Origin: Planctomycetaceae bacterium
GTDB lineage: Bacteria > Planctomycetota > Planctomycetia > Pirellulales > UBA1268
Assembly (NCBI GenBank): GCA_947449135.1
Contig: CANFQO010000032.1
Span: 1-33,904 of the forward strand
Direction: 5' to 3'
Length of the DNA stretch: 33,904 nucleotides
Part shown: one piece after another, positions 17,014-33,904 of the stretch
How positions within the stretch are numbered: position 1 is the first letter of the stretch
Layout of the letters: each line of letters opens with the position of its first letter
The notes under the pieces: model-generated
Database searches by the model: none
What the model saw: the letters and a program-made list of their open reading frames with translations, nothing else
Told to the model about the DNA's origin: nothing
Made by a program: the position numbers and the translations under genes

Positions 17014-20000
17014 ATGCACCTCCGCCCGCTGCTTGTGATGCTTCTGGCCTTCGGAGCCGCGGCGGCGGCGCGGAACAACCCGGCCGCTGAACCATCTCCT
17101 CCGGCGTTCGACTTCGACCGGCAGATCGCGCCGCTGCTGATCTCGCGCTGTCTGGAATGCCACTCGGGAGCGAGCCCCGATGGCGGGCTGTCGCTCGTCG
17201 ACGTCGAAGGTGCGGCCAAGGGGGGAGAGAGCGGGCCGGCGCTCGAACCGGGGAACGCTCGAAGCCTCTTGCTTGCGCGGGTGGAGAGCAACGAGATGCC
17301 CCCCGAGCAACCACTTTCCGACGACGAGAAAGCGATCCTCCGCGCCTGGATCAAAAGAGGTGCTCCCTGGGGAACAGAGCCCCTCGATCCGCTCGCCGTC
17401 AGCACCGCGAAGCGTGCCGGACGGGATTGGTGGTCGCTCCAACCGCTCGCGGAATCCCCTCTCCCCGAGACGGCGCATGATCCGTGGGCACGCGGTCCGA
17501 TTGATGCCTGGGTGCTCGACAAGCTCCGACAGTCCAGCCTCGCTCCCTCGCTCCCAGCCGATCCTCGTCTCCTCATCCGTCGACTGTTCTTCGATCTCAT
17601 CGGCCTCCCGCCGAGCCCGCAGCAGGTCGAGGCGTTCATGGCCGATCCCTCGGAGGCCGCGTATGCCCGCCTCGTCGACGACCTCCTTGCCTCTCCCCAC
17701 TACGGCGAGCGTTGGGGGCGGCACTGGCTCGACATCGTCCGCTACACCGAGAGCGAGGGATTTGAATACGACCACCCGCGCGACCGCGCCTGGCACTACC
17801 GCGATTACGTGATCAAGAGCTTCAACAACGACAAGCCCTACGATCAATTCATGCGTGAGCAGCTGGCCGGCGATGTCCTCGAACCGGTGACGAGCGACGG
17901 CATCATCGCCACGAGCATGCTCGTCTGCGGTGCCTGGGACAGGGCCGGTAACGCCCAGGCCAATGCCACGCAGCGTGCCATCACGCGCGAGGAAGAGATG
18001 GAGGACATGATCAGCGTCGTAGGCCAGACGTTCCTCGGCCTGACGCTCAACTGCGCCCGCTGTCATGACCATAAATTCGATCCGGTGCCGCAGGAGGACT
18101 ATTTCCGCATCAAGGCCGTCTTCGATGGCATCAAGCACGGGGAACGATCGATCAGATCCCCTGCCGAGATCGAGGCACGAAAGCGGCAGGGGGCGGTGCG
18201 GGACGAACAGATGGCCGCCGAGCGGGTGACGATCGCCACCCTCCAACGGGAAGGGGCGCAGCGGGCTGCGGTACGCTCGCCGGATCGCAGCGGCCTGTCC
18301 CCGGGCCCGATGCCCCTCATCCGCTGGACATTTCGTGAAGGCACCGCACCGTCCGACGGCTTCCTCCACGGCGGCGCCGTGGTCGTCGGCGACCGGCTCC
18401 GGCTCGCCAAGGAGACGCAGTCCTTCTTCGAAAGCACTCCTATTCCCGAATCGATCCGGGAAAAGACGCTCGAGGCCTGGGTGGTGCTCACCGACCTCGC
18501 TCAGAGTGGCGGGGCGGCGATGTCGATCGAGAGCACCGCCGACCGCGACTTCGACGCGATCGTGTTTGGTGAGCGACAACCGCGGAAGTGGATCGCCGGC
18601 AGCGGTGGGTTTGCACGAACCCGCGATCTCGAAGCCGCCGAAGAAACCGCGACCACCGGTGAGCCGGTCCATATCGCGGCGGTCTATCGGGCCGACAACA
18701 GCATCACCCTCTACCGCAACGGCGAGCGCTATGCGGCTCCGTATGTCCCCTCGGCATCGCTTCGCACGTTTGAGAAGGGGACGGCGACGATCCTCATCGG
18801 TCTGCGGCACCATGGCGCCGGCAACGGCTTTTTCGACGGCGAGATCCTTCAGGCCGCCCTCCACGACCGGCCGCTCGGCGACGACGAGGTGGCTGCGGCA
18901 TTTCGGGCCGGGGGTTTCTCATTTTCGCAGGAGGAGATCCTCGCCTGCCTTGACGACGACGAGCGGAAGAGCCATGCCGAGGCAACCGCGCGAATTGACG
19001 CGCTCAAGAAGGAAGCGGAGGCTGCCGCAGCCGACACGGCTGTGTCGTATGTGGGCGTCCGTGTGGAGCCGGCGCCGACGGCCCTCCTGCAGCGCGGCAG
19101 CGTCACCTCCCCCGGCGAGATTGTCAGTCCATCCGGCCTCTCGGCGATCACCACCGTCGCCGCCGACCTCGGGCTCCCTTTCGATGCCCCCGAGGCCGAG
19201 CGACGCAAACGGTTCGCCGCCTGGATCGCTGATCGAGCCAATCCTCTCCCCGCCCGCGTGATCGCCAACCGGATCTGGCAGTACCACTTCGGCCGGGGGC
19301 TCGTGGCGACGCCGAGCGATTTCGGTCTCAATGGCGGCCGCCCGAGCCACCCCGAGCTGCTCGACTGGCTGGCAAGCGATCTCGTGCGGTCGGACTGGCG
19401 GCTCAAAAGCCTCCACCGCGCCATCGTCCTCTCCTCGACCTATCGGCAGGCCTCGACCCACGACGAAATGGCCGCCGCGATCGATGCCGACACGACGCTC
19501 CTGTGGCGCTATCCACCGCGGCGTCTCGAGGCCGAGGCGGTGCGGGATGCGATGCTCGCCGTGAGTGGCGAGCTCAATCCGGCCATGGGAGGCCCGAGCT
19601 TTCGCCCCTTCACGACGACGAGCTTCAACGCCACCTTCTACCACCCCATTGATCGCGACGATCCCGAGCTGAACCGGCGAACTGTCTACCGGATGAATGT
19701 CAACTCTGGGAAAGAGCCGCTCCTCGACGCATTCGACTGCCCGAGCCCGTCGGTGAAGACGCCGACGCGTGGTGAGACGATCACGCCGCTCCAATCGCTC
19801 TCGCTGATGAACAACAGCTTCGTCCAGCGGCAGGCCGATCGGCTCGCCGCCCGCGCCCTCGAAGCCGCCGCCGGCGACCTCCCCCTCGCGGTTGGCCGGG
19901 CCTACGAACGCGCCCTGGGGCGACAACCGACCGACGAGGAGCGGCAGCGCGCCGTAGCAGCGGCCGGGGATCGTGGGCTGCAAAGCGTCTGCTGGGCACT

Positions 20001-20034
20001 CCTCAATTCCAGTGAGTTTCTCTATGCCCGATGA
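17014..20034 (+). CDS. Planctomycete cytochrome-c/DUF1549/LamG/DUF1553 protein (PSD1 family)
   Basis: About 1006 residues, exported. The start at 17014 is chosen for the signal peptide (MHLRPLLVMLLAFGAAAAA) and GGGAA about 8 nt upstream; Met codons at 16996 and 16963 are alternatives. Domain order is: PSCyt1 cytochrome c with heme motif CLECH (Cys46, Cys49, His50) and MPPEQP (Met95, possible distal ligand); DUF1549 (about 155-365) ending in a second CxxCH (Cys347, Cys350, His351); an inserted LamG-like lectin fold (about 430-630); a helical linker; DUF1553 (about 740-1000). The gene overlaps the DUF1501 gene by 11 nt, the usual pairing. Family function is unproven; periplasmic electron transfer in polysaccharide breakdown has been suggested. 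16724-17013 holds no gene. Confidence 0.92.
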   Translation: MHLRPLLVMLLAFGAAAAARNNPAAEPSPPAFDFDRQIAPLLISRCLECHSGASPDGGLSLVDVEGAAKGGESGPALEPGNARSLLLARVESNEMPPEQPLSDDEKAILRAWIKRGAPWGTEPLDPLAVSTAKRAGRDWWSLQPLAESPLPETAHDPWARGPIDAWVLDKLRQSSLAPSLPADPRLLIRRLFFDLIGLPPSPQQVEAFMADPSEAAYARLVDDLLASPHYGERWGRHWLDIVRYTESEGFEYDHPRDRAWHYRDYVIKSFNNDKPYDQFMREQLAGDVLEPVTSDGIIATSMLVCGAWDRAGNAQANATQRAITREEEMEDMISVVGQTFLGLTLNCARCHDHKFDPVPQEDYFRIKAVFDGIKHGERSIRSPAEIEARKRQGAVRDEQMAAERVTIATLQREGAQRAAVRSPDRSGLSPGPMPLIRWTFREGTAPSDGFLHGGAVVVGDRLRLAKETQSFFESTPIPESIREKTLEAWVVLTDLAQSGGAAMSIESTADRDFDAIVFGERQPRKWIAGSGGFARTRDLEAAEETATTGEPVHIAAVYRADNSITLYRNGERYAAPYVPSASLRTFEKGTATILIGLRHHGAGNGFFDGEILQAALHDRPLGDDEVAAAFRAGGFSFSQEEILACLDDDERKSHAEATARIDALKKEAEAAAADTAVSYVGVRVEPAPTALLQRGSVTSPGEIVSPSGLSAITTVAADLGLPFDAPEAERRKRFAAWIADRANPLPARVIANRIWQYHFGRGLVATPSDFGLNGGRPSHPELLDWLASDLVRSDWRLKSLHRAIVLSSTYRQASTHDEMAAAIDADTTLLWRYPPRRLEAEAVRDAMLAVSGELNPAMGGPSFRPFTTTSFNATFYHPIDRDDPELNRRTVYRMNVNSGKEPLLDAFDCPSPSVKTPTRGETITPLQSLSLMNNSFVQRQADRLAARALEAAAGDLPLAVGRAYERALGRQPTDEERQRAVAAAGDRGLQSVCWALLNSSEFLYAR

Positions 20035-21496
20035 ATCGCTCCGGAAGACTGATCAGGCCCTCTCTCCGGCCGCGCTCCTCCCGCGCCGTCATTTTCTCTC
20101 CAATTCCAGCGGCAGCCTGGCGAGCGTCGCCTTCTCCTGGATGCTCGCCAACGAAGCCTCCGCGGCAACTCCCGGCCCGACGAACGCAGCCACCGGCTCC
20201 GGGCTCCACTTCCCCGCCAAGGCGAAGCGTGTCGTGCAGATCTTTTGCAGCGGCGGCGTCAGTCATCTCGAGACGTTCGATCCGAAGCCGGAGCTCGAGC
20301 GGTTGGACGGTAAGTCACTCGAAGGGAAGGGGGAGAACCTCGGTTTCTTCGGCCAGCCGGGGATGCTCATGAAGAGCGTCTACCCGTTCGCGAAGCATGG
20401 TGAGAGCGGGTCGTGGGTCAGCAGCCTCCTCCCGGGGCTTGCCAGCTGCGCTGACGATCTGTGCTTCATCCACTCGATGGTCGCCAAGAGCAACAACCAC
20501 ACGCCGGCAACGTTCCAGATGAACAGTGGCTTCACGCTCAACGGCTTCCCGTGCATGGGTGCCTGGTTGAGCTACGGCCTCGGGACGGTCAACGAGGATC
20601 TTCCTGCTTTCGTCGTTCTCCCCGATCCGCGCGGCCAGCCGGCTGGTGGATCGATCAACTGGACGAGCGGCTTCCTCCCTGCCAATCACCAGGGGGTGGC
20701 CTTTCGCACCGACGGTGGCGATCCGATCGCCGACCTCCGCACGCCCGCGGGGCTCTCTGCTATCGATCGCGTTGCCGACCTCCGGCTCCTCGAATCGATG
20801 AACGGCGATTTTGCTCGGCTCCATCCGGGTGACACCGACTTCGCCGCGAGGCTCCGCTCCTATGAGCTCGCCGCCCGGATGCAGGTGAGCATCCCCGAGG
20901 CGACCGATTTTGCCGACGAGCCGGAGACCATCCGTGAGCTCTACGGGATCGACGACCCGACGAATAAAGGCTTCTCGCGCAACTGCCTCATGGCCCGCCG
21001 GCTCCTCGAACGGGGCGTGCGGTTCGTGCAGCTTTTCAACGGCGGCTCATTCGGCAGCCCGCGGATCAACTGGGACGGCCACGAGAACATGAAGGAGAAC
21101 CACGACACCCAGGCCGCCACGATGGATCGCCCCGTCGCGGCGCTGATCAAGGATCTCAAGGACCGTGGCATGCTCGACGACACGCTCGTCGTCTGGTCGA
21201 CCGAGTTTGGCCGCAGCCCCGTCACTCAAGGGATCGGCGCTACCGGCCGCGACCATCACCCCAAGGCCTTCACGTGCTTCCTCGCCGGTGCCGGCGTCAA
21301 AGGGGGCCACCATCACGGCGCGACCGATGACGTCGGCTACAGCGTCGTCGAGGACGAGGTGACGATCCCCGATTTCCACGCCACGATCCTCCACCTTCTC
21401 GGCATCGACCACGAGAAGCTCACCTACTACCACAACGGCGTCAATCGGCGTCTCACCGACGTTCACGGAAAGTGCATTCGTGGCATCCTCTCCTGA
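20024..21496 (+). CDS. DUF1501 protein with Tat signal
   Basis: About 490 residues, alkaline phosphatase/sulfatase-like fold (DUF1501). The ATG at 20024 overlaps the upstream PSD1 gene by 11 nt and is preferred over 19973 because the Tat signal then sits near the N-terminus: LPRRHFLSNSSGSLASVAFSWML with the twin Arg at about residues 21-22. Family blocks follow: VVQIFCSGGVSHLETFDPKP, RFVQLFNGGSF, WSTEFGRSP, GRDHHPKAFTCFLAGAGVKGG and a C-terminal DFHATILHLLGIDHEKLTY. Length is typical. It is expected in the periplasm as partner of the cytochrome/DUF1553 protein; no enzymatic activity is established for the family. It converges on the DUF1254 gene; 21497-21612 contains nothing clear. Confidence 0.92.
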   Translation: MPDESLRKTDQALSPAALLPRRHFLSNSSGSLASVAFSWMLANEASAATPGPTNAATGSGLHFPAKAKRVVQIFCSGGVSHLETFDPKPELERLDGKSLEGKGENLGFFGQPGMLMKSVYPFAKHGESGSWVSSLLPGLASCADDLCFIHSMVAKSNNHTPATFQMNSGFTLNGFPCMGAWLSYGLGTVNEDLPAFVVLPDPRGQPAGGSINWTSGFLPANHQGVAFRTDGGDPIADLRTPAGLSAIDRVADLRLLESMNGDFARLHPGDTDFAARLRSYELAARMQVSIPEATDFADEPETIRELYGIDDPTNKGFSRNCLMARRLLERGVRFVQLFNGGSFGSPRINWDGHENMKENHDTQAATMDRPVAALIKDLKDRGMLDDTLVVWSTEFGRSPVTQGIGATGRDHHPKAFTCFLAGAGVKGGHHHGATDDVGYSVVEDEVTIPDFHATILHLLGIDHEKLTYYHNGVNRRLTDVHGKCIRGILS

Positions 21497-21612: not shown

Positions 21613-23085
<1,473 letters not shown>

Positions 23086-23128: not shown

Positions 23129-24661
23129 TCACGGCATCTTCTCGATGTCGCCCGGCTTCCAGCTCTTGGTGATGGCGGCTTCGGTCGGGCCGTAGAGACG
23201 AAGGACGGCGAAGTAGCCCTTGCCGGGCACCGTTGCGAGCCAGTTTCCCTCCTTGCCGGCGGGCGATGTGGGCCCGAGGAAGAGGTCCGTGCTGCCGTCG
23301 GCGTTCTGCGCCGGGGTGTCGCGTGACCCGAGCGACGGGAACGGCTGGCCGTTGGCGAGCCCCGATCCGTTTTCGGCCTCGTAGAGCGTCACCGACCAGA
23401 AGTTGGCGGCCGGGATGTCGCGAGGCAGACGAAGGCGGTAGCTGCTGCCACCCGACAGGTTCGCACCGCTGCTGTCGACGAAGGCGATCATGTACTTGGC
23501 GCCCCTGCCGGGAGACTGTGACAGCATTCCGGGGCTGACCGAGTAGTAGTTGGTGAAGAACCAGATCCGAGCATCGAGGTCGAGATACCCGCCTGCCACC
23601 CTGCGCCAGCCGAGATCGAAAGGCCCGCCGAGATTCTCTGGGGTCGCGTCGGCCATGGGATTGATCCACCGCCGATCGGGATAGATCCGCAGGGAACGGC
23701 CGGCGACCACATCTTCAAAGCCGATGACGCGGCTCATCTTGAAAGCCGTCCTCGCGGCGTGATCGAGGATCGCCCGTGTCTTTGCGTCGGGCTCGAAGGG
23801 CCGGCCCTTGGCAATGCCGATCGATGCCAGCATGCCGAGCGAATCGGAGTCGGCGAGACCGGCGCTCTCGCTCTCCACCAGTTTCTTGAGTTCGTCGAAG
23901 GCGGTGCCGTCGCTGATCGGCAGCATGTTGACCGGCACACCGGAGGCATCGGGAAACTGCATCGGCCTGGCGTTTTGTCTGCCGTTGAGCGGATAGATCT
24001 TCGACTGTTCGATGAGCGCGACGGCTGGCGTCAGGTTCTTCGGGTCTTGATAGAACGCTCGTAGGAAGACGAAGACGTTGTTGGTCGGCGAACGGTAGAC
24101 GAAAAAACCGTCCGGTACCGGCCCCTCGTAGCCGGGCGGCAGTAGCAGAAAGTTTCCACCCTTGCCGGCGTCGGGACCCGGCAGGCCAACGTCTCCAAAG
24201 AACCTGCCGCCATCGACCGGGATTGGCCGCTGCCAGGCATCGAGCAGAATGCCCTGGAGGTTGGGCGGAGCCTCGAACACCAGCGGACCGTCCTTGCCGA
24301 GGTCGACGTAGCCCATCGCGTAGATGACATCGGAGTTGGGGGTCGTGATCAGCGTCTTGGCGTCGAGCCGCTGCTTCCAGACCGGGAGCACGTCGTAGCC
24401 TGCGCCAAAGACTTTTTCCGAGCCGACCTTCATTCCGAGCGTGTTGATCAGCGGCAGGGCCCAGAGATAGGCCTGCGTCGCGCGTTGGAACAGCAGCTCG
24501 TCTCGTAGGGTGCGGGCGGTCTCCTCAGTCGGCCTGTTCTCCGCGAACGGCAGGCTGCTGAGTGCCTCGAAGCGGGTAGCCTGAGCCAACGCCGGCCCGG
24601 CGTGGATGAACGCGGCAGCGACCGCACTGACAAGGAGCAGGTGCATGCGTGGGGTGTTCAT
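23129..24661 (-). CDS. Exported DUF1254/DUF1214 protein, copy 1
   Basis: A 510-residue secreted protein with signal peptide (HLLLVSAVAAAFIHAGPALAQ, cleavage after ALA, about residue 26). DUF1254 signatures are at about 55-180 (QRATQAYLWALPLINTLG; TTPNSDVIYAMGYVDLGKDG) and the DUF1214 block at about 400-505 (IPAANFWSVTLYEAENGSG; NWLATVPGKGYFAVLRLYGPTEAAITKSW). It is a paralogue of the following gene (21613-23085), probably from tandem duplication, and lies 59 nt downstream of an acyl-CoA dehydrogenase-like gene on the same strand. Ribosome site weak. Function unknown; two diverged copies side by side suggest they form a hetero-oligomer or act on related substrates. Confidence 0.88.
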   Translation of the reverse strand: MNTPRMHLLLVSAVAAAFIHAGPALAQATRFEALSSLPFAENRPTEETARTLRDELLFQRATQAYLWALPLINTLGMKVGSEKVFGAGYDVLPVWKQRLDAKTLITTPNSDVIYAMGYVDLGKDGPLVFEAPPNLQGILLDAWQRPIPVDGGRFFGDVGLPGPDAGKGGNFLLLPPGYEGPVPDGFFVYRSPTNNVFVFLRAFYQDPKNLTPAVALIEQSKIYPLNGRQNARPMQFPDASGVPVNMLPISDGTAFDELKKLVESESAGLADSDSLGMLASIGIAKGRPFEPDAKTRAILDHAARTAFKMSRVIGFEDVVAGRSLRIYPDRRWINPMADATPENLGGPFDLGWRRVAGGYLDLDARIWFFTNYYSVSPGMLSQSPGRGAKYMIAFVDSSGANLSGGSSYRLRLPRDIPAANFWSVTLYEAENGSGLANGQPFPSLGSRDTPAQNADGSTDLFLGPTSPAGKEGNWLATVPGKGYFAVLRLYGPTEAAITKSWKPGDIEKMP

Positions 24662-30745: not shown

Positions 30746-30959
30746 AACGGTTCGGGGCTGCCCACGCCCCGTCGCCGGACGTTCGCTACGTCGACCAATC
30801 CGCCTCCGGCGGATCGGTGCCCGCTGGCCGTCGCTCACTCGATGCTGACTGCGCTCCGGCTGGCGGCTTTCGCGCCGTCGCCGCCGTCCCGGCGTCGGCT
30901 CCGGCTTACAGGAGCCGTGCAGAGCACGGCTCCCAATCTCTTGCCTGCGCTTGTCAGCA
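30746..30959. repeat. Long direct repeat, copy A
   Basis: This copy is matched in the same orientation by copy B at 33720-33904. The head (30746-30787, 42 nt) differs by one base, the tail (30831-30959, 129 nt) is identical, and the centre differs (43 nt here, 14 nt in B). The tail holds nested hairpins: GGAGCCGTGC, loop AGA, GCACGGCTCC (30911-30933), and an overlapping alternative CGGCTCC/GGAGCCG. The centre holds ATCCGCC, TCC, GGCGGAT. No protein is supported on either strand. It occupies most of the 468-nt gap between uvrC and the oxygenase gene; the remaining 30960-31177 shows no clear feature beyond a weak promoter-like TTGTAC/TAGGCT near 31096. Confidence 0.85.
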
Positions 30960-31177: not shown

Positions 31178-31987
31178 ATGGCTGTGGCCAAGTCCCCCGA
31201 GGCTGAAGCAGTTTCCCGCCGCGGGCTACTGGTGGGCGGGGTTGCGGCATTGGCCACGGGTGTCGTCGGTGCTGCCGGCGGCTATCAGGCGAGGCGGTTT
31301 CGCGAACGCATGATCACACCCGCCGCCGACTCGGCGACCTCCGAGTTCCGCCGGCACGCGGCCGCGATCCGTGCCACCCAGTCGCGACAGACCGTGGAAG
31401 ACGTCGTCGCACTGCGTAGGAAGTATCAGGATCCGATCTTTGGCAAGGCCCGCGTGTGGGACATGATCGAAAAGCTGGGAATGTGCGTGGACGCCAGCGA
31501 TGACTCGCTGATGTGCACGAGTCAACTCTTGCACGTGCAACAGGTGCTCGAGGCGATGGAACGAGATGGCGTGCAGGACCGTGACCTGTTCCTCGTCGCG
31601 CTGCTGCACGACATAGGCAAGGTCATGCTGCTGACCAATGCGGCCCCCGAGCACGTGGTCGGCTACATCAGCCCGTTGGGTGAGCCGTCTCATGGCATCG
31701 GTCTCGAGAACGTGATCTTCCAGTTCGGTCACGACGAGTTCATCTACTCGAGGATCAAGGACCTCGTCCCGGAGCGTGTCGCGTGGACCGTCCGCTATCA
31801 CAGTGCCATGGTCGACACGCTGCGGCCCTACTGCAATGAGCAGGATCTCGCACACCTGGACGGGTGCCTCGCAGTGTTCCAGCCATTCGATCTGTGTCAC
31901 AAGTCGTACCGTCATCTGCCGCACGTCGACATGGCAAAGTATCGTGCACTGATCGAGGACACGTTCCCGCAGCCCATCCTGTTTTGA
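31178..31987 (+). CDS. Myo-inositol oxygenase-like HD-domain diiron protein with Tat/anchor N-terminus
   Basis: A 269-residue protein. Residues 70-269 follow the myo-inositol oxygenase (MIOX) family throughout: QTVEDVVALRRKY, VDASDD, LLHDIGKVM, GLENVIFQFGHDEFIY, VRYHSAM, CNEQDLAHLDG, FDLCHKSYRHLPHVD. All six diiron ligands are present: His119, His144, Asp145, His185, His208, Asp238. MIOX cleaves myo-inositol with O2 to glucuronate. Pocket residues equivalent to mouse Asp85, Lys127, Ser221 and Lys257 are kept (Asp105, Lys148, Ser209, Lys242), but mouse Asp142 is Tyr163 and about 30 residues of the following loop are missing. The N-terminus SRRGLLVGGVAALATGVVG is a twin-Arg signal or membrane anchor, unusual for a cytosolic family. 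Fold and metal site confident; substrate unknown. Confidence 0.85.
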   Translation: MAVAKSPEAEAVSRRGLLVGGVAALATGVVGAAGGYQARRFRERMITPAADSATSEFRRHAAAIRATQSRQTVEDVVALRRKYQDPIFGKARVWDMIEKLGMCVDASDDSLMCTSQLLHVQQVLEAMERDGVQDRDLFLVALLHDIGKVMLLTNAAPEHVVGYISPLGEPSHGIGLENVIFQFGHDEFIYSRIKDLVPERVAWTVRYHSAMVDTLRPYCNEQDLAHLDGCLAVFQPFDLCHKSYRHLPHVDMAKYRALIEDTFPQPILF

Positions 31988-32073: not shown

Positions 32074-33711
32074 ATGATCTCCTTGCTGCCGGGACGATTT
32101 GCCATCACATGGCTTGGCGCGATCATGGCGCTGACCGTGTTCGCGGTCGCATGGCCACGAGGATCGCGAGCATTCAACCGGTTCGTGGCGGCCGGTTTGG
32201 TCACCGTGGCTCGCCGTCCCTGGCTGATCGCGTTTCCAGTCATCGCCATGGGAGTGGTCGTGCTGTGGGCCCACCATGGGTTTCCCCAGCCACGAATCCA
32301 CGACGAGTTCAGCTATCTGCTGGCTTCCGACACGTTTGCGCATGGTCGGCTGGCGAATGCGCCGCATCCGCTGTGGCAGTTCTTCGAGACTTTTCATGTC
32401 AACCAGCAGCCGTTCTATGTATCGATGTACCAGCCCGGCTTTGGACTGGCCTTGGCCGCGGGCCAACGGTTCCTCGGGCATCCATGGTTCGCCGTATGGA
32501 TTTCCGCTATCGCTCTGGCATTGGCCGTCCACTGGGCTGCACGCGCGTGGGTTTCACAGCTGTGGGCTGCCGCGGCCGGACTCGTCACCGCCTGCATCGT
32601 GTCCCGTGGCTACTGGCTCGACAGTTACTGGGGGGGGACACTGCCTGCCATCGCCGGCGCCCTCGTGGTAGGGGCGTGGCCTCGCGTCATCCGTGCGGCG
32701 AATCGAGATGCAGCGTCGGTAATTGCCGCGGCTGTCCCCTTGGCAGCGGGTGGGGTGCTCTTGCTCTTCACGCGGCCCTATGAGGGACTCGCCTTGGTGC
32801 TGCCACTCGCAGTCGGCCTCGCGATGTCGCCCATGCCTTCACGGTCGCACGCGGCGTGGATCGTCACCTGCACGATCGCCTTGGGGATCGGGTTGGCCGG
32901 GCTGGCCTCCTACAATTGGCACACGACGGGGACCATGTTGACCACGCCCTACGGGCTGAACCTGTTGTCTTATCATCACCGCAAACTCTTCGTGTTTGGT
33001 GCCGATCGTGATCCCCCTCCCGTCTACCGGCATGAAGTCATGCGGCGGATGTACTCCGAGGAGTTCCAGCTTCGGCCATTTTCCGCCGAGGCGATTCGAC
33101 AACACATCGTGCCGACCATGTCGTTTTACGGCGCACCGCTGCAACTGATCACGGTTGCCGCGATGCCGTGGCTCTTCCGCAACCGCCGCAGCCGTCCACT
33201 CCTCCTTGCGACCGGCTGTGTGTGCATCGCGGCGCTGCTGACCGTCTTCATCCGGCCCCACTATCTGGCACCAGCGGCCGCGGGCATCGTCATTCTCACC
33301 ACGCAAGGGTTTCGGGTGGTGTCGACGCTGCGCTGGCGAAGGCATCGATTCGGCCGCACAGTCGCCTACGGTTTTCTGGTGTGTTGGCTGGTGGTGGCCT
33401 ATGGCTACGGCGTGGTGCAGCAAATACGAACGGAGAATCCTCCGACGTGGGTTCGGGAACGCACGCGGATCACCGAGGAACTCACTCGGGCGGGCGGACA
33501 GCATCTCGTGCTCGTTCGATACTCGGCAGAACACCGTCCTCACGACGAATGGGTCTACAACGGAGCCAGCCTGGGATCTGACGCCCAGATTCTTTGGGCA
33601 CGCGCTATGGATGAACAGTCGGATGGCAGACTCATGCGGCATGAGGCCGACCGCACGATCTGGATGGTCGAGCCCGACTCAGACGGCAGGCTGCAACGCC
33701 TTACGCCCTGA
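32074..33711 (+). CDS. GT-C type membrane glycosyltransferase-like protein
   Basis: A 545-residue integral membrane protein with about 10-11 hydrophobic segments up to residue ~460 and a soluble C-terminal tail of about 90 residues. After the second helix comes a periplasmic loop with RIHDEFSYLLASDTFAHGRL (Asp77-Glu78), the acidic motif expected in PMT/ArnT-like GT-C enzymes, which move sugars from lipid carriers to acceptors on the outer face of the membrane; NAPHPLWQFFETFHV and SMYQPGFGLALA follow. It lies 86 nt downstream of the MIOX-like gene on the same strand, probably in one transcript. Its stop lies 8 nt before direct repeat copy B. Donor and acceptor unknown. No Shine-Dalgarno is clear at the ATG. 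Confidence 0.75.
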   Translation: MISLLPGRFAITWLGAIMALTVFAVAWPRGSRAFNRFVAAGLVTVARRPWLIAFPVIAMGVVVLWAHHGFPQPRIHDEFSYLLASDTFAHGRLANAPHPLWQFFETFHVNQQPFYVSMYQPGFGLALAAGQRFLGHPWFAVWISAIALALAVHWAARAWVSQLWAAAAGLVTACIVSRGYWLDSYWGGTLPAIAGALVVGAWPRVIRAANRDAASVIAAAVPLAAGGVLLLFTRPYEGLALVLPLAVGLAMSPMPSRSHAAWIVTCTIALGIGLAGLASYNWHTTGTMLTTPYGLNLLSYHHRKLFVFGADRDPPPVYRHEVMRRMYSEEFQLRPFSAEAIRQHIVPTMSFYGAPLQLITVAAMPWLFRNRRSRPLLLATGCVCIAALLTVFIRPHYLAPAAAGIVILTTQGFRVVSTLRWRRHRFGRTVAYGFLVCWLVVAYGYGVVQQIRTENPPTWVRERTRITEELTRAGGQHLVLVRYSAEHRPHDEWVYNGASLGSDAQILWARAMDEQSDGRLMRHEADRTIWMVEPDSDGRLQRLTP

Positions 33712-33719
33712 GCAGGTCG

Positions 33720-33904
33720 AACGGTTCGGGGCTGCCCATGCCCCGTCGCCGGACGTTCGCTCCTGCCAGTGCCCTTCGCTCACTCGATGCTGACTGCGCT
33801 CCGGCTGGCGGCTTTCGCGCCGTCGCCGCCGTCCCGGCGTCGGCTCCGGCTTACAGGAGCCGTGCAGAGCACGGCTCCCAATCTCTTGCCTGCGCTTGTC
33901 AGCA
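33720..33904. repeat. Long direct repeat, copy B, cut by window end
   Basis: Same orientation as copy A (30746-30959). Head 33720-33761 differs from A by one base, the short centre 33762-33775 is unlike A, and tail 33776-33904 is identical to A over 129 nt to the last base of the window, so the true right end is not seen. It carries the same GGAGCCGTGC/GCACGGCTCC hairpin (33856-33878). With copy A it brackets the MIOX-like and GT-C-like genes. Confidence 0.85.

Follow-up and report, generated by a model that had tools for sequence, protein, structure and literature searches.

The described systems closest to the protein treated here are the myo-inositol oxygenases (MIOX; PF05153, with structures 2HUO from mouse and 2IBN from human), the HD-domain oxygenases PhnZ and TmpB (TIGR03276), and the dinuclear HD-domain hydrolases such as YqeK and HD-GYP. 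Known MIOX, PhnZ and TmpB oxygenases are regarded as enzymes that break down small molecules in the cytoplasm, and the ligand pattern H...HD...H...H...D is also found in dinuclear HD hydrolases, so that oxygenase chemistry is not settled by the ligands alone. The HD superfamily has been reviewed (PMC8177086), and in MIOX, PhnZ and TmpB the diiron site is mixed-valent and needs no external reductant after turnover (PMC8177086). In mouse MIOX the pairs Asp85/Lys127 and Asp88/Lys257 form lid salt bridges over the substrate, and Gln136 makes a stabilising contact (PMC2584100). The window, by which we mean the whole analysed stretch of 33,904 nucleotides, contains a gene for a MIOX-like protein with an export-type N-terminus (Table 1). 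We infer, with a probability of about 0.6, that the product is a diiron oxygenase exported by Tat and probably tethered, with a polyhydroxy compound other than inositol as its substrate. The family, the ligand set, the conserved export-type N-terminus, the deletion, the loss of the inositol motif and the linked neighbour can be read from the sequence itself, and metal content, oxygenase chemistry, Tat dependence, location, substrate and the part played by the neighbour all belong to the inferred side.

Table 1. Features of the MIOX-like locus and its surroundings in the window.
Feature	Position	Strand	Remarks
Dispersed repeat copy	30746..30959	+	Precedes the two-gene cassette
Tat-type-signal, short-loop MIOX-like diiron protein	31178..31987 (stop included)	+	269 aa, ATG start
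Twin-Arg motif SRRGLL (residues 13–18) and hydrophobic Ala/Gly-rich segment (residues 16–36, 21 residues)	31214..31285	+	Signal peptide or uncleaved anchor; from sequence, conserved in 6/7 members
MIOX/HD diiron domain, about residues 66–269	31373..31984	+	Ligands H119, H144, D145, H185, H208, D238
Shortened loop, residues about 160–176	31655..31705	+	Canonical VVGDTFPVGC replaced by VVGYISPLG; 29 residues missing relative to canonical MIOX
Multi-TM membrane protein	32074..33711	+	545 aa with nine hydrophobic segments, the first loop containing HDEFSYLL; an equivalent gene is adjacent in L003 too
Dispersed repeat, second copy	33720..33904	+	Downstream of the cassette, to the contig end

The protein scores 85.9 bits against the Pfam MIOX profile (E 4e-24, cut-off 25), and the other members of its subfamily score 55–83 bits. 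The match is split into two stretches, residues 65–166 and 163–261, because a piece that is present in MIOX is absent between them. With phmmer against the PDB the mouse and human MIOX structures were found at 3e-14 and 4e-13, and in this and a further PDB search MIOX structures were the only significant matches, while hhalign of the subfamily with canonical MIOX gave a probability of 99.8% (E 2e-30). AlphaFold2 models had low confidence (pLDDT 48 from the single sequence and 37 from three sequences) and were too poor for superposition or a fold search. The subfamily resembles PhnZ and TmpB in its ligand pattern, that of the mixed-valent diiron oxygenase group, but its members reach only 18–33 bits against TIGR03276 (19.6 for the window protein) with a cut-off of 214.6, PhnZ itself was not significant (E 1.4), and no PhnY/TmpA-type neighbour was seen beside the subfamily genes. 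No Rfam match was found near the gene.

Six relatives were found in genome searches. A genome-contig scan with the window protein gave L003 from a Bryobacterales MAG (69% identity) and L004 from an Acidobacteriia MAG (58%), and whole-genome searches gave L099, L100 and L101, all in the order of L003, together with L006 (genome G135), which is from the same phylum as the window and 38% identical. The subfamily, represented by seven proteins, is rare. It is present in 2 of 392 genomes sampled from the phylum of the window and, for the acidobacterial order, in 5 of 257, and among 396 genomes of the order of the window it is found in the window's own genome only. Two other matches in that order are partial, C-terminal and of about 60 bits, and the gene matched in one of these genomes (G433) is a canonical MIOX. 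No match to the window protein was found in four genomes of the same genus. The tree places all seven members in a single clade separate from canonical MIOX (support 100/100), with the window protein grouping with L003 and L004 (96/95), and L006 is a long branch whose exact placement is unsure. The profile match over the full length, the gap of 29 residues and the tree topology rule out that a canonical MIOX was misread as a member of the subfamily. Viral contigs contained relatives of neither the subfamily nor canonical MIOX, and a plasmid collection contained only two distant MIOX with 28% identity. Within the HD-domain diiron proteins, the seven are a small subfamily of the MIOX branch that has apparently spread horizontally.

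The twin-Arg, Ala/Gly-rich hydrophobic N-terminus that was claimed in the first-pass annotation is present, reading ...VSRRGLLVGGVAALATGVVGAAGGYQARR in the window protein, and a pair of arginines followed by a charge-free Ala/Gly-rich hydrophobic segment recurs in six of the seven members, being absent only from L006, the most distant one. The contexts are SRRGLLVGG in the window, TRRQLLTAG in L003, PRRLFLAGI in L004, RRRDFLIGS in L099, RRRDFLIGG in L100 and KRRDLFRLG in L101, where the charge-free stretch begins after FR. The residues around the segment differ among the members and the linker to the domain is not conserved, but the segment itself recurs. An identical scan of 68 other MIOX/HD frames gave one weak, marginal match, and all 55 full-length canonical MIOX frames lack such a segment; its recurrence in six of seven members is therefore more than chance. 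In L003 the distal ATG, preceded by GAGGAGAAGGA with a strong Shine-Dalgarno sequence, is the sole ATG, GTG or TTG before the domain, and in L004 the one alternative start is a TTG within the hydrophobic segment, so the segment is translated as well as conserved. A downstream start at Met45 was rejected for the window protein on account of the conserved RR segment and of L003, in which there is no alternative start. Homologues that start near residue 45 and have no signal are limited to the distant L006 and to the canonical MIOX, and the latter stand cleanly apart from the subfamily. Export or membrane anchoring, as proposed earlier for this protein, is therefore well supported at the level of sequence by a Tat-type N-terminus conserved across the subfamily. 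The window also encodes a second Tat-type protein, a DUF1501 protein at 19973–21496 (+) with its own RR motif LPRRHFLSNSSGSLA.

The N-terminus might instead anchor the protein in the membrane with the diiron domain still on the cytoplasmic side, or be inserted by Sec/YidC, with the enzyme tethered beside the multi-TM partner encoded by the adjacent gene. This would agree with the N-terminus of the window protein, where positive charges (QARRFRERM) directly follow a hydrophobic segment of about 21 residues and no AxA site is evident; L003 is similar. However, each of the six signal-bearing members has its arginines immediately ahead of the hydrophobic segment, in Tat-like contexts, and like Tat signals these segments are of weak hydrophobicity and rich in Gly, which makes this explanation unlikely.

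The six residues His119, His144, Asp145, His185, His208 and Asp238 align with the mouse MIOX ligands His98, His123, Asp124, His194, His220 and Asp253, so the whole diiron ligand set claimed from the sequence stands, and it is invariant in the alignment of all seven subfamily members and all 55 canonical MIOX. The equivalents of mouse Asp85, Asp88, Lys127 and Lys257 are likewise invariant in the seven members. A ligand set H/HD/H/H/D can be common to dinuclear HD hydrolases, and weak HD/HDOD similarities are seen in the subfamily, so that the protein could be thought of as an extracytoplasmic HD-domain metallo-hydrolase, a phosphatase or phosphodiesterase, built on a MIOX scaffold. Against this, the significant structure matches are to MIOX only, no significant sequence match to dinuclear hydrolases such as YqeK and HD-GYP was obtained, and the invariant MIOX-specific Asp/Lys lid pairs are absent from those enzymes, which have the pattern only partly in common. 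In HD phosphatases, furthermore, the first metal His is preceded by an Arg that is strictly conserved (PMC8177086), and the corresponding stretch of the window protein, TSQLLH, has none. A hydrolase is accordingly held to be improbable, and a diiron oxygenase is the preferred reading of the site.

What sets the putative oxygenase apart from MIOX is the region that accommodates inositol. HDxGK and the third His are separated by 36 residues in all seven members and by 65 in 54 of 54 canonical MIOX, a deletion of exactly 29 residues. Neither this deletion nor the loss of the inositol-specific motif was mentioned in the first-pass annotation. The motif GDT[FY]P, present in 54 of 55 canonical MIOX, and PVGC, present in 51 of 55, are found in none of the seven. 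Asp142, which is reported to contact inositol in mouse MIOX, is invariant in the 55 canonical proteins and replaced by Tyr, Ala, Phe or Met in the subfamily, Gln136 is Pro in all seven members, and the position of mouse Ser221 is Gly in L099 and L100. The C-terminal end P-x-x-[IL]-x-[WFL] of MIOX is kept, in the form FPQPILF in six of the seven. Judged from the alignment, the subfamily retains the metal site and some of the lid but has a remodelled inositol-fitting region. The earlier identification as a MIOX homologue thus holds, and that as an inositol-type oxygenase holds only in part: ligands and lid pairs are retained, Asp142, Gln136, GDTFPVGC and 29 residues are gone. The label MIOX is to be limited to family membership, because the inositol-site residues and the full segment from the HD motif to the third His are both lacking. 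Shortening of the loop beside the active site probably leaves this site more open than in MIOX, as would be fitting for a substrate such as a glycan, glycoside or lipid-linked sugar. One genome (G448) encodes a member of the subfamily and in addition a canonical MIOX with 361 bits, and two separate genes probably have separate functions there. That the protein is a true myo-inositol oxygenase simply exported to the periplasm, converting free myo-inositol to glucuronate there, would be consistent with the Pfam match, the ligand set and the conserved Asp and Lys pairs, but is very unlikely in view of the replacements of Asp142 and Gln136 in all seven proteins, the absence of the GDTFPVGC motif and of 29 residues, and the separate canonical MIOX of G448.

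For a Tat-exported diiron oxygenase with a substrate other than inositol, the following course would be expected. The protein would fold and load two irons in the cytoplasm and be exported in the folded state by the Tat pathway through its RR signal; since Tat moves folded proteins, it could carry the metal-loaded site out. The exported protein would then be tethered by its hydrophobic N-terminus, or cut after it. Outside the cytoplasmic membrane the mixed-valent Fe(II)/Fe(III) site would react with O2, and as no external reductant should be needed the enzyme would be suited to work there, oxidising or cleaving at a vicinal-diol carbon of a polyhydroxy substrate other than myo-inositol. The multi-TM protein encoded beside it and inherited with it may synthesise, transport or alter this substrate. 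Tentatively, and with a good deal less confidence, the protein might be taken as founding a subfamily of extracytoplasmic, Tat-exported and tethered mixed-valent diiron oxygenases, which oxidatively open or trim sugar residues of a surface glycan or a lipid-linked saccharide that the co-inherited multi-TM protein helps to make. No exported MIOX was found in a search of the open-licence literature. Among the MIOX, PhnZ and TmpB oxygenases, a branch that is exported by Tat and has its active site remodelled would to our knowledge be the first extracytoplasmic member. If this is true, O2-driven C–C cleavage without an external reductant is extended to the cell surface. Clear handles for finding the substrate are the deletion of a constant 29 residues, the loss of the inositol motif and the membrane gene linked to the enzyme gene.

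The gene following the MIOX-like gene encodes the multi-TM protein, and an equivalent gene is located downstream of the MIOX-like gene in L003, with an overlap of 1 nt. These two adjacent multi-TM proteins are 49–52% identical, while other copies of the family in the enzyme-bearing genomes are at most 38% identical and located elsewhere. The family (L115–L121 and the window copy at 32074–33711) is common, with a shared sequence motif and 1–4 copies in each of six genomes searched, and has a conserved DE in the first loop. Searches of Pfam, NCBIfam and the PDB with the multi-TM protein, profile searches included, gave no match. The DE in the first loop and the many TM segments recall GT-C glycosyltransferases, which might serve as a lead only. 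The multi-TM gene, too, is missing from the four same-genus genomes, and as the two genes are linked in the window and in L003 the pair was probably acquired together, by transfer as a unit. The cassette is bracketed by two copies of a dispersed repeat that has 57 matching places across the contigs of the window genome, several of them at contig ends, and the repeat therefore probably breaks the assembly. That the cassette stems from a contaminated assembly was judged unlikely, because both flanks carry this repeat and the contig should thus belong to the genome.

Other members have different surroundings. In G1084 (L105, 8018–9881) a gene for a xylose-isomerase-like TIM barrel is located about 20 bp upstream of the MIOX-like gene on the same strand, a gene order that suggests a sugar pathway operon. 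The MIOX-like gene of G1036 (L104, 7490–9228) is divergent from a gene for a secreted 3-keto-disaccharide hydrolase (PF06439), 26 bp apart, and the two genes are arranged in the same way in G1038. In L004 an alpha/beta hydrolase gene is found downstream. These neighbours are compatible with sugar chemistry without fixing the substrate; the surroundings differ in L004, L099/L100, L101 and L006, and there is therefore no consistent pathway context. Elsewhere in the window, two adjacent genes on the minus strand (21613–23085 and 23129–24661) encode DUF1254/DUF1214 proteins whose N-termini are of the Sec type; the pair apparently arose by tandem duplication.
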